Of a stretch of 64,000 nucleotides of DNA, positions 51,320 through 55,881 are shown in pieces. Source of the DNA: Candidatus Eremiobacteraceae bacterium (GTDB lineage: Bacteria > Vulcanimicrobiota > Vulcanimicrobiia > Eremiobacterales > Eremiobacteraceae). The notes beneath the pieces are model-generated. The model was not told the origin of the DNA, did not search any database, and saw only the letters and a list, made by a program, of their open reading frames with translations. The stretch is from assembly GCA_036511855.1 (NCBI GenBank), contig DATCBN010000044.1, positions 1 to 64,000 of the forward strand, given 5' to 3'. A program made the position numbers and the translations under genes. Numbering within the stretch: the stretch's first letter is position 1; the number at the start of each line of letters is the position of its first letter.

Positions 51320-52294
51320 ATGAGCACGACAAATCCAGAGCATCTCGGCAGAACCGCGCGGTTCATCAGACTGCTCAAAGAGATCGATGAAAAGCGGGCG
51401 GTCTCGAAGGCTCGATTGCACGAGATCCTCACCACCTCGTCGGAAGCGACATTCAAACGAGTCAAAGCAGAATTGCGCGAAGCCGGATATCCACTTTCAT
51501 ACAACAGCAAGGATAAACTCTATCACGTTTCGGCACGAGCCGCGCTCTCGCGGCCGAAGCTCGATCCGCGCAGCCGCGCGCAACTCGCGCTGGTGAGGAC
51601 CGCGATCGCGGGTCTTGGCGCGCCCTACGTCGCCGCGCTCGGTGAAGTGCTCGACATCCTCGATGCCCGGATCGCCATCGAAGATCCGGAAGCCGCTGCA
51701 ACGCTCTCGTCGCGACGGCCTCAGCCGCGCGCGGATCGCGCGTTTTACGAACGGCTCGATAACGTGGACACGGCGATCCGCGAAAGCCGGCTCATACAAT
51801 TCGACTACACCCACACCGCGGGCGGCGCCACCGACCCGCGCTGGGCGAAGCCCCTTGCGATGCACGATCACGACGGGCGCATCTACTGCTGGGCGATCGT
51901 CGAAGGCGAAGACCGCCCGAAGCTGTTCGCGCTGGACCGCATGGGAGACGTCGAACTGCTCGAACCGTTCGATCCAGACAGTAGATGGAAGCTCGACGAC
52001 GATCTGCGCTACAGCTTTGGCATCATGATCGGCCGGGACGCACCGCAAAAAGTGGCGATCGACATCGACGCAAGAGCCGCGGCGAACGTGCGCGCCCGGC
52101 GCTGGCCCGCTGAGACGGCTTGCGAAACACTTTCCGGCGGCACCCTGCGCATGACGTTTGAAGTCACGATGACCGAAGAGCTGATCTCGTGGGTCTTGGG
52201 TTTTGGCGGGCTCGCTACGGTCGTAGAGCCGTCGAGCGTGGCAGATGAGGTGCGAAGCCGCGCTGCAGCTATGGCATCACAACACGCGCGATAG
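51320..52294 (+). CDS. WYL-domain transcriptional regulator
   Basis: A 324-residue protein starting at ATG 51320; the frame is open upstream, overlapping the nusA leader, but the ribosome-binding site is weak. The N-terminal winged helix (RTARFIRLLKEIDEKRAVSK, ARLHEILTTSSEATFKRVKA) is followed by a WYL domain (ESRLIQFDYTHTAGG, GRIYCWAIVEGEDRPKLFAL) and a WYL C-terminal extension (IDIDARAAANVRARRWP). WYL proteins sense nucleic acids or other ligands and regulate DNA-damage, phage-defence or metabolic genes. No defence genes are nearby, so its targets are unknown. It converges with the DUF202 gene, overlapping it by 18 bases. Confidence 0.88.
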   Translation: MSTTNPEHLGRTARFIRLLKEIDEKRAVSKARLHEILTTSSEATFKRVKAELREAGYPLSYNSKDKLYHVSARAALSRPKLDPRSRAQLALVRTAIAGLGAPYVAALGEVLDILDARIAIEDPEAAATLSSRRPQPRADRAFYERLDNVDTAIRESRLIQFDYTHTAGGATDPRWAKPLAMHDHDGRIYCWAIVEGEDRPKLFALDRMGDVELLEPFDPDSRWKLDDDLRYSFGIMIGRDAPQKVAIDIDARAAANVRARRWPAETACETLSGGTLRMTFEVTMTEELISWVLGFGGLATVVEPSSVADEVRSRAAAMASQHAR

Positions 52295-52639
52295 GTTCAG
52301 GATGACCAGCGCGCCGGTGACCACGGTTGCCGCTCCGACGACGATGGCAAGCCATGGCGCCGAATGGTATTGGTCACGTTTAAGCTCGATATCGACCACG
52401 ACGAAGCGCCACGATCCCAGCGCGCCGAGCGCGACGCCCAGCGCCGCGAAGGCGATGCCCAAACGGTGACCGGACATCACTGCCCACGGTCCGACGCTGA
52501 CCTGGGTTCCCGGCATGGCGTGCGCGAGCACCGCGAACTTTGCGATGACAAATCCGAACGCCATCAGCGACAGCGACGTCCGCACGTAGGCGAGAAACGT
52601 CCGCTCGTTGGCCAGATGATCGGTGACGCGCAGATTCAT
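52277..52639 (-). CDS. DUF202 (YidH-type) inner-membrane protein
   Basis: A 120-residue protein with three membrane helices, starting at ATG 52639, which gives the typical DUF202 N-terminus NLRVTDHLANERTFLAYVRT. The helices are about 20-38, 60-80 and 92-115. The family (E. coli YidH and YidG) is widespread and of unknown function; links to stress and redox have been suggested but not established. The frame extends to 52714 without a better start. It is divergent from the cation/proton antiporter gene, 212 bases away. Confidence 0.85.
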   Translation of the reverse strand: MNLRVTDHLANERTFLAYVRTSLSLMAFGFVIAKFAVLAHAMPGTQVSVGPWAVMSGHRLGIAFAALGVALGALGSWRFVVVDIELKRDQYHSAPWLAIVVGAATVVTGALVILNLSRVL

Positions 52640-52810
52640 GATGGTGGAAGCTTGATTGGGACGTCCGTCTTTGGTATTCCTCGGCGGCTGCGGCCGCAAA
52701 CTCGACGTCTGCACACTGCAAGGACGTCGGCCGAGCGCGGTGGAAACCCATCGGACGTGGCGGTGGAGTCCGCCCGGCAGCGATGCAAAACTGCTCCGAT
52801 GTGGGAGCCG

Positions 52811-52850
52811 ATGACTCCTGACCGCGCTCTTAGAGCGCCAGGAGAATCAT
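52811..52850 (+). promoter_or_regulatory. Hairpin that sequesters the ribosome-binding site of the antiporter gene
   Basis: The 40 bases directly before ATG 52851 fold back on themselves. ATGA (52811-52814) pairs with TCAT (52847-52850), CTCCTG (52815-52820) pairs with CAGGAG (52839-52844), and GCGCTC (52824-52829) pairs with GAGCGC (52833-52838), with a TTA loop and small bulges (AA and ACC). The Shine-Dalgarno AGGAG (52840-52844) is entirely inside the stem. Sixteen pairs in total suggest that translation is controlled by opening this structure. Confidence 0.65.
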
Positions 52851-54065
52851 ATGCACGCTGTATTTGACGTGTCCGCGCTTCAGAACATGTGGCTCATCGC
52901 CGCGATCTGGATGGCGCTGGCGTTCCTCGGTTCGCTCATCTCGATCCGATTCGGCATAGCGGCCGCCCTGATCGAGATCATGCTCGGCATCCTCGCGGGA
53001 AACTTCATCGCCTTACGATCCAACGTCTGGATCGATTTCATCGCGGGCTTCGGCAGCATCATGCTCACGTTTCTCGCGGGCGCCGAGATCAATCCTACGA
53101 ATTTCAAGCGCCAGTGGCGCCCTGCCGTCTCAATCGGGCTCTTGTCTTTCGGCGCGCCCTTTCTTTGCGCGATGGTTTACGCTTACTTCTTCGCGCATTG
53201 GGACGCCAACGCTGCAAAGATCGCGGGCATCGCGATGTCCACAACGTCGGTGGCCGTTGTCTATGCGGTCATGATCGAATCGGGACTCGCGGGCACGGAG
53301 TTCGGCCAACTCATTTTGGCCGCGTGCTTCATCACCGATCTCGGCACCGTAGTGGCTCTCGGACTGCTCTTCGCGAACGTCAACGCGTGGCTCGCGATCT
53401 TCCTAGGCGTGAGCATCGCGGTGATCGCGTTCGCTCCGCGGTTCGTTCCGAATCTCTACGTTCGGCTTGGCGATCGTGTCAGCGAACCCGGCGCCCGCTT
53501 CCTCTTCCTCATCATCTTCATGCTCAGCGGCCTCGCCACGATGGCCAATAGCGAAGGCGTTCTGCCAGCCTACTTCCTCGGCTTTTCGTGCGCCGGCTTT
53601 CTGTTGAGCCACACCGAGTTTTCGCGCGGCCTGAGGCGCACGACCATGAGCCTGCTAACACCGTTTTATTTCATCAAGGCGGGTACGTTCGTGTCGCTGA
53701 CGCAAGCGGCGACGGCGATCTGGGCGATCTTGGCGTTCTTTCTCGTCAAGGTCGTGGCGAAAATAATTGCCGTCTATCCAGCAGCCCGGGCGATGCGCTA
53801 TAAGACGAGCGACGCCGCCTACCTCACGCTTATGATGGCGACCGGTCTGACGTTCGGCACGATCTCGAGCCTCTACGGACTGATGCACGGCTACATCACG
53901 CAGGGGCAGTACACGACGCTCGTCACCGTCGTCATCTTGACCGCGATCGTGCCTACGCTGATCGCGCAGCGTCACTTCCCGCCGAGTCAGGAAGTGCAAG
54001 AAGCGGAGTCCGGAGGTCTGGCAGAGATCGAGGTCCGACTTTCGAAGGCGGCGCCTCCCGGCTAG
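52851..54065 (+). CDS. Cation/proton antiporter (CPA2, Na+/H+ exchanger family)
   Basis: A 404-residue membrane protein with about 12 helices of the PF00999 family. ATG 52851 follows AGGAGAA at six bases. Early helices read LGSLISIRFGIAAALIEIML, then FIAGFGSIMLTFLAGAEINP; the central MSTTSVAVVYAVMIESG and LAACFITDLGTVVAL regions carry the Asp (TD) expected near the ion site. It would exchange Na+ or K+ for protons to control pH or salt. The C-terminus is short and lacks KTN/RCK domains. Its start codon region lies at the foot of an RNA hairpin, so translation is probably regulated. Confidence 0.9.
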   Translation: MHAVFDVSALQNMWLIAAIWMALAFLGSLISIRFGIAAALIEIMLGILAGNFIALRSNVWIDFIAGFGSIMLTFLAGAEINPTNFKRQWRPAVSIGLLSFGAPFLCAMVYAYFFAHWDANAAKIAGIAMSTTSVAVVYAVMIESGLAGTEFGQLILAACFITDLGTVVALGLLFANVNAWLAIFLGVSIAVIAFAPRFVPNLYVRLGDRVSEPGARFLFLIIFMLSGLATMANSEGVLPAYFLGFSCAGFLLSHTEFSRGLRRTTMSLLTPFYFIKAGTFVSLTQAATAIWAILAFFLVKVVAKIIAVYPAARAMRYKTSDAAYLTLMMATGLTFGTISSLYGLMHGYITQGQYTTLVTVVILTAIVPTLIAQRHFPPSQEVQEAESGGLAEIEVRLSKAAPPG

Positions 54066-54106: not shown

Positions 54107-54322
54107 ATGAACGATCCGGCCGCGCGCCGTAATCCGCGGCGCTTCGCTTATTGGCTGCTCGCGATCCCTATCGTCGCGACTTTGTGGCCTCCGCTCTACG
54201 CGCACGCCGACCCTGAGATCGCCGGCATTCCATTTTTCTATTGGTATCAATTCATCTGGGTCGTGCTGAGCAGCGTCGTCACCGTAACCGTCTATCTGCT
54301 CACGCGCGAGGATAAGACGTGA
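54107..54322 (+). CDS. DUF3311 small membrane subunit of an SSS transporter
   Basis: A 71-residue protein with two membrane helices (FAYWLLAIPIVATLWPPLY and FFYWYQFIWVVLSSVVTVTV). The pattern, with a Pro-rich loop and WYQF before TM2, is that of DUF3311 proteins, which are encoded next to sodium:solute symporters of the MctP/monocarboxylate type and are thought to be partner subunits. The TGA overlaps the GTG of the symporter gene (GTGA), so the two are co-translated. The ribosome-binding site before ATG 54107 is weak. Confidence 0.88.
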   Translation: MNDPAARRNPRRFAYWLLAIPIVATLWPPLYAHADPEIAGIPFFYWYQFIWVVLSSVVTVTVYLLTREDKT

Positions 54323-55881
54323 TCCTGTGGACCGCGGTCGCGGTCTTCCTCGCGCTCTTCATCCTCGTCAGCGTGATGGGCTTCATGGCCACACGCTGGC
54401 GGCCGAGCAATCTCGACGACATCCACGAATGGGCGCTCGCCGGCCGCGGCTTCGGCACGTTCACCTCGTGGTTCTTGATCGGCGGCGATATCTACACCGC
54501 CTACACGTTCATCGCTGTGCCGGCGTTGGTCTACGGTGCCGGCGCCCTCGGCTTCTTCGCGCTGCCCTACACAACGATCGTCTATCCGATCGTCTTCGTC
54601 TTCGCGCCGCGCTTTTGGCTCGTCGCGAAGCACCGCGGCTATATCACGTACGCCGATTTCGCGCGCGAGCGCTTCGACAGCCGCAGCCTCGCCTTTGCGG
54701 TGGCATTCACGGGCATTTTGGCCACCATGCCGTACATCGCGCTGCAGCTCGTCGGCATGCAAGTCGTGATCGCCGGACTCGGCTTCACCGGCCAGGGTCT
54801 GTTAGGCGACCTGCCGGTCATCGTGGCGTTTGCCATTCTCGCGATCTACACATATCGGGGAGGCCTCCGCGCGCCGGCTATGGTCGCATTCGTCAAGGAT
54901 GCGCTTATCTACATCACCATCATCGGCGCGTCGATCGTGCTGGTCTCAAAACTCGGCGGCTTCGCGCACATCTTCCAAACCGCAAGCGCGGTCTTGGCAC
55001 AACGGCCAAAGCCCGGTACGATCATCTTGCCCCCGCAAAGCTTTACGGCGTATGCCACGCTCTCGCTCGGTTCGGGCCTCGCGTTGTTCATGTACCCGCA
55101 CGCGATCACCGGCGTGCTGAGCGCGAAGAACACGACCGTCATCAAGCGGAACATGGCTCTCATTCCGGCCTACAGCGTTTTGCTCGGCCTCAACGCGCTG
55201 TTCGGATTCATGGCGATCGCCGCCGGCGTTCACGCCGCAAGCCCGAACGCCGCGGTGCCGCTGCTGTTCGTGAAGATGTTCCCGCAGTGGTTCGTGGGGA
55301 TGTCGTTCGCCGCCATCGCGATCGGCGCGCTTGTCCCGGCTGCCATCATGTCCATCGCGGCAGCCAATCTCTTCACGCGATCGATCTACAAGGAATACAT
55401 CAAACCGGCATGCTCCGGTCCGGAGGAGACGCGCGTCGCACGTTACGTCTCGCTTGCGGTCAAGGCGGGCGCGCTGCTGTTCGTGCTCTTGCTGCCCACA
55501 CAATTCGCCATCTACTTTCAGTTGCTCGCCGGTGCGTGGATCCTTCAGACGCTGCCGACGATCCTCATCGGCCTCTACACGCGCAGGCTTCACCGGCGCG
55601 CGCTATTCGTCGGTTGGCTGGCCGGCATGATAACCGCGACGTGGATGGGCATCGTCACTGGCTACACGCCGACGATCACGCTGCACCTCGGCGGCTTCTC
55701 GCTGGCTGGGTACATCGGCCTATTCGCGCTCACGCTCAACCTCATCGTGACGATTGTGGGCACTTTCATATGCGATGGTCTTGGCGTCGGCCGGGGCCAG
55801 GATGCGACGAGCCCGACGGACTATTTAGATGACACGGGAGTAGCATCGCGAACAGTCGTTCGCAAGTTATCCGTGACTTGA
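54319..55881 (+). CDS. Sodium:solute symporter, monocarboxylate type
   Basis: A 520-residue, 13- to 14-helix SSS transporter starting at GTG 54319. Typical parts are EWALAGRGFGTFTSWFLIGG near the N-terminus, FVFAPRFWLVAKHRGYITYA, DFARERFDSRS, GLRAPAMVAFVKDALIYITI (the SSS signature) and AIAIGALVPAAIMSIAAANL with the Ser-rich helix 8. Together with DUF3311 it resembles MctP, which takes up lactate, pyruvate or acetate. Acetate uptake would fit the xfp-ackA pathway, but the genes are far apart. The end of the gene is followed by an AT-rich stretch that probably holds the pilin-cluster promoter. Confidence 0.9.
   Translation: MILWTAVAVFLALFILVSVMGFMATRWRPSNLDDIHEWALAGRGFGTFTSWFLIGGDIYTAYTFIAVPALVYGAGALGFFALPYTTIVYPIVFVFAPRFWLVAKHRGYITYADFARERFDSRSLAFAVAFTGILATMPYIALQLVGMQVVIAGLGFTGQGLLGDLPVIVAFAILAIYTYRGGLRAPAMVAFVKDALIYITIIGASIVLVSKLGGFAHIFQTASAVLAQRPKPGTIILPPQSFTAYATLSLGSGLALFMYPHAITGVLSAKNTTVIKRNMALIPAYSVLLGLNALFGFMAIAAGVHAASPNAAVPLLFVKMFPQWFVGMSFAAIAIGALVPAAIMSIAAANLFTRSIYKEYIKPACSGPEETRVARYVSLAVKAGALLFVLLLPTQFAIYFQLLAGAWILQTLPTILIGLYTRRLHRRALFVGWLAGMITATWMGIVTGYTPTITLHLGGFSLAGYIGLFALTLNLIVTIVGTFICDGLGVGRGQDATSPTDYLDDTGVASRTVVRKLSVT

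Follow-up and report, generated by a model that had tools for sequence, protein, structure and literature searches.

The leader of a cation/proton antiporter gene in the window (the 64,000-nt stretch of DNA analyzed here) is very probably a fluoride riboswitch whose expression platform acts on translation. Established in this leader are the aptamer, a hairpin that covers the ribosome-binding site, a strand common to the two, and the conservation of both elements.

An aptamer and a hairpin with a common strand

The hairpin occupies the 40 bases 5′ of the antiporter start codon (52811–52850, + strand) and comprises 16 base pairs in blocks of 4, 6 and 6, apparent in both the sequence and the computed fold. 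In the outer block, AUGA (52811–52814) pairs with UCAU (52847–52850); in the middle block, CUCCUG (52815–52820) pairs with CAGGAG (52839–52844); and in the inner block, GCGCUC (52824–52829) pairs with GAGCGC (52833–52838). The stem is closed by a three-base loop, UUA (52830–52832), and interrupted by two bulges, ACC (52821–52823) and AA (52845–52846). The Shine-Dalgarno sequence, AGGAG (52840–52844), lies inside the stem, 6 nt 5′ of the AUG at 52851, and the outermost pair adjoins this AUG. The first-pass annotation had described exactly this pairing, including the buried Shine-Dalgarno sequence and the contact of the last pair with the start codon. The minimum free energy (MFE) of the hairpin is −19.6 kcal/mol, compared to a mean of −7.3 for shuffled sequences (z = −4.9), and none of 200 shuffles was as good. 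The MFE, the z-score and the covariation among orthologues described below support the assignment of this element as the expression platform. A weak match to the Rfam family Mu-gpT-DE over the hairpin, at 18.8 bits where the cut-off is 49, was taken as chance.

Directly upstream, and sharing the 5′ arm of the hairpin, cmscan and the consensus alignment placed a fluoride riboswitch aptamer (52750–52827, + strand) that matches the full length of the Rfam model RF01734 at 35.0 bits (E = 7.9e-8), a mere 1 bit over the gathering score of 34. It is the sole RF01734 match in its own genome. This element was absent from the first-pass annotation, which covered only the last 40 bases of the leader and saw no obvious match to a named riboswitch class, a statement that the RF01734 match overturns. 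The first aptamer stem, GGCG/CGCC (52759–52762 with 52771–52774), follows from the Rfam structure line, and its loop carries the 5′ pseudoknot strand GGAGUC (52765–52770), for which the pseudoknot pairing was assigned by homology. The second stem, GCUCC/GGAGC (52793–52797 with 52804–52808), is seen in both the fold and the Rfam alignment.

The conserved 3′ strand of the aptamer, GAUGACUCCU (52810–52819), doubles as the 5′ arm of the hairpin. Within it, the switching strand (52811–52819, + strand) includes GACUCC (52813–52818), which is at once the 3′ pseudoknot strand and part of the hairpin arm. GGAGUC and GACUCC form six of six possible pairs, with a U-A to C-G exchange among relatives. A40 and U48 have been described as a linchpin pair in the Bacillus cereus fluoride switch (PMC8752731); by position, A52811 and U52819 correspond to these sites and flank the 3′ pseudoknot strand. 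The leader thus shares with RF01734 (the crcB motif) the aptamer architecture, the conserved 3′ strand and a downstream platform that competes for that strand, but differs from the consensus by an 11-nt insertion after the first stem and by its modest score.

In 52300–53200, no other Rfam family matched at its curated score, and no match to a Li+/Na+ riboswitch was found up to an E-value of 10. Li+/Na+ riboswitches, which control nhaA and presumably work through the ribosome-binding site (PMC9646797), are likewise ion-sensing leaders of a cation/proton antiporter gene, but they have a different aptamer, with no match in the leader described here. Fluoride is the ligand of the riboswitch class to which the leader is assigned by sequence, and binding together with Mg2+ and a change in expression are predicted. 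By the same assignment, the hairpin is the output half of a fluoride riboswitch, and not an orphan element.

Conservation in orthologues and distant homologues

A search of 61 related genomes recovered full-length orthologues of the antiporter (57–86% identity) in 20 genomes, not counting that of the window, and the organisms with close matches were mostly Candidatus Eremiobacterota. An RF01734 match was present just upstream and on the same strand in all 21 of the 21 Eremiobacterota orthologues, in some cases under the gathering score. Among 50 distant homologues from other phyla (46–57% identity), 33 were preceded on the same strand by the aptamer at a distance of no more than 600 nt; for most of the remaining 17, it was located farther upstream, in some cases separated from the antiporter by crcB, or in another part of the genome. 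Three distant genomes gave no match in the aptamer screen, one of which (L093) yielded a sub-threshold match of 28.8 bits when scanned singly.

The pairing of the hairpin was also followed across the orthologous leaders, a check that the first-pass annotation had proposed and that came out in favor of the stem. With the alignment anchored on the Shine-Dalgarno sequence only, and with three variable positions after CUCCU counted, 51 of 60 variable cells were paired, compared to a permutation mean of 34. None of 100,000 permutations reached 51, a figure that is not a strict probability, as the permutations ignore relatedness. When the register was slid by 1–2 bases, 13–25 cells were paired. The covarying exchanges include G-C/A-U/C-G and U-A/A-U. 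Since the aligned pairing is conserved with compensatory changes in the orthologues, the hairpin is more than a chance fold.

Six of the leaders (L008, L011, L013, L015, L018 and L020) have a run of U residues directly 3′ of the stem that bears the Shine-Dalgarno sequence. In these class-level relatives, the sequences suggest that one hairpin may both terminate transcription and block the ribosome-binding site.

Proposed switching mechanism and its alternatives

The hairpin arm overlaps the pseudoknot strand, and the two folds are therefore mutually exclusive. In the absence of fluoride, AUGACUCCUG would pair with CAGGAG...UCAU, hiding the Shine-Dalgarno sequence, and the antiporter would barely be translated. 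Binding of fluoride and Mg2+ to the newly transcribed aptamer would lock GACUCC and GGAGUC together as the pseudoknot. Of the hairpin, no more than the inner 6 bp would then remain, leaving the Shine-Dalgarno sequence exposed and allowing the antiporter to be made, which would aid survival under fluoride. The inner hairpin (GCGCUC/GAGCGC) lies off the aptamer core and is able to form in either state. When the pseudoknot strands were blocked, the computed accessibility of the Shine-Dalgarno sequence in the window rose from 0.00 to 0.68; the test imposes a constraint and computes no energy for the pseudoknot or for fluoride binding. The gain was above 0.2 in 12 of 20 leaders, including that of the window, and at or below 0.2 in the other 8.

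Translational platforms have been presumed for some members of the fluoride riboswitch class (PMC8814607). The sequence, fold, terminator scan and covariation agree with such a platform in this leader, in that the Shine-Dalgarno sequence is base-paired to a strand of the aptamer and the stem is not followed by a terminator. The characterized B. cereus member, in contrast, has an intrinsic terminator (PMC8752731), and a U run right after the stem, such as AGGAGUUUUU, occurs in several class-level relatives. It is nevertheless improbable that the riboswitch in the window acts mainly on transcription, through termination, since its stem is followed not by a U-tract but by AAUCAUAUG, and the terminator scan found no + strand site. 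A plain intrinsic terminator was dropped for lack of the U-tract.

The first-pass annotation had proposed a regulatory leader switched by pH, ions or temperature, among other signals. The translational on/off control by burial of the Shine-Dalgarno sequence has gained comparative support, and an ion is still the likely signal, but the class senses fluoride, and not pH, Na+, Li+ or temperature. A stable fold over the Shine-Dalgarno sequence of an antiporter gene would suit a stand-alone hairpin that responds to pH, Na+/Li+ or temperature. However, the 5′ arm of this hairpin is a conserved aptamer strand, the aptamer is kept upstream of all close orthologues, and the Li+/Na+ riboswitch families had no match, making this reading highly unlikely; it was dropped because of the identity of the arm and the aptamer strand. 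Even less credible is control through translation of a short leader frame, which would open at the AUG at 52811 and run to the TGA at 52865–52867, overlapping the antiporter start. This AUG belongs to the aptamer consensus GAUGACUCC and is retained on that account, which led us to drop the leader peptide; furthermore, no Shine-Dalgarno sequence was noted 5′ of it. We retain the fluoride riboswitch with a translational platform as the preferred reading.

The antiporter and its possible role in fluoride resistance in the family

The gene downstream of the leader (52851–54065, + strand) encodes a CPA2-like cation/proton antiporter of 404 residues, as the first-pass annotation had supposed. It matches Pfam PF00999 (E = 8e-37) and the NapA and KefC profiles, and its AlphaFold model (pLDDT 84) is most similar to NapA, the top PDB match, and KefC; the Pfam match and the NapA/Kef fold place it with CPA2. 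However, it scored only 87.6 bits against a cut-off of 238.3 for the NCBIfam CPA2 subfamily TIGR00932, and it was therefore filed as CPA2-like only, as a divergent branch. The fold and overall sequence profile are shared with NapA and KefC at about 16–20% identity. K304 aligns with the conserved lysine of NapA, while the Asp-Asp motif of electrogenic members, such as NapA, is replaced by T162-D163, and this branch has two further basic residues, K276 and K300, that are near-invariant. We found no literature linking the branch to Eremiobacterota or to CPA2.

On the upstream side lies a divergently oriented gene for a DUF202 membrane protein (52277–52714, − strand). Downstream, a pair of genes encoding DUF3311 (54107–54322, + strand) and the monocarboxylate permease MctP (54319–55881, + strand; 688 bits, cut-off 625) begins 41 nt 3′ of the antiporter.

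No CrcB/Fluc and no CLC of any kind was found in 14 genomes of the window's family, while the same searches were positive in 10 and 12, respectively, of 14 control genomes. The family genomes are drafts, mostly 92–97% complete, which makes single absences weak, but the joint absence of CrcB and CLC across all 14 is not easily explained as an artifact. All eight family genomes with a full-length antiporter have a fluoride riboswitch and all six without the antiporter have none (Fisher p = 0.0003, with ancestry ignored). In 8 of the 14 genomes, the riboswitch of the antiporter is the only one detected.

Neither CrcB nor CLC was present in 24 of the 50 distant genomes with a homologue, as counted by hand. 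The antiporter sat directly behind the riboswitch in 25 of 30 genomes without CrcB, compared to 9 of 20 with CrcB (Fisher p = 0.006, with L093 counted as direct and shared ancestry ignored). In two relatives, G020 and G049, the antiporter is immediately followed, in the same orientation, by a partial match to crcB.

Three genomes of the same class (G056, G032 and G014; loci L146, L147 and L148) lack such an antiporter and have 6–7 fluoride riboswitches each, mostly clustered within about 8–25 kb. Nearby genes encode cyclopropane-fatty-acid synthase-like enzymes, dynamin-family GTPases, DUF190 proteins with CrcB, MutS-like proteins, a Nudix protein and NADH dehydrogenase/Mrp-like subunits, and the cluster looks like a fluoride-response island.

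Fluoride riboswitches, their use 5′ of Na+/H+ antiporters (PMC11139923) and presumed translational platforms (PMC8814607) have been published already. Na+/H+ antiporters are a reported class of fluoride riboswitch-linked genes (reviewed in PMC11139923), and the arrangement described here is the same, with a fluoride riboswitch 5′ of a cation/proton antiporter, except that this riboswitch is the only one found in its genome, where searches for CrcB and CLC were negative. What seemed to be an orphan regulatory hairpin becomes a known fluoride switch, and its signal is thereby named.

The conservative view of the antiporter is also the simplest, namely that it serves pH and ion homeostasis and that cation/proton exchange would shift the internal pH and, by weak-acid chemistry, the extent to which HF is trapped as F−; alternatively, the antiporter may export fluoride directly. 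Judging from gene content, the antiporter may be the main fluoride-resistance transporter in the window's family, and possibly an exporter. Rather unlikely is a broader proposal, in which the branch with Thr-Asp and the extra lysines would be a stand-alone fluoride-resistance transporter, perhaps an exporter, that replaces Fluc/CrcB and CLC-F where both are missing. This proposal draws on the missing CrcB and CLC in the 14 family genomes and in 24 of the 50 distant ones, and on the more frequent position of the antiporter directly behind the riboswitch where CrcB is absent. In this bacterium, and apparently across its family within the Eremiobacterota, where no known fluoride exporter was detected, no gene other than the antiporter seems to respond to fluoride. 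A lineage without known exporters would offer a clean background for the role of riboswitch-linked antiporters in fluoride resistance.
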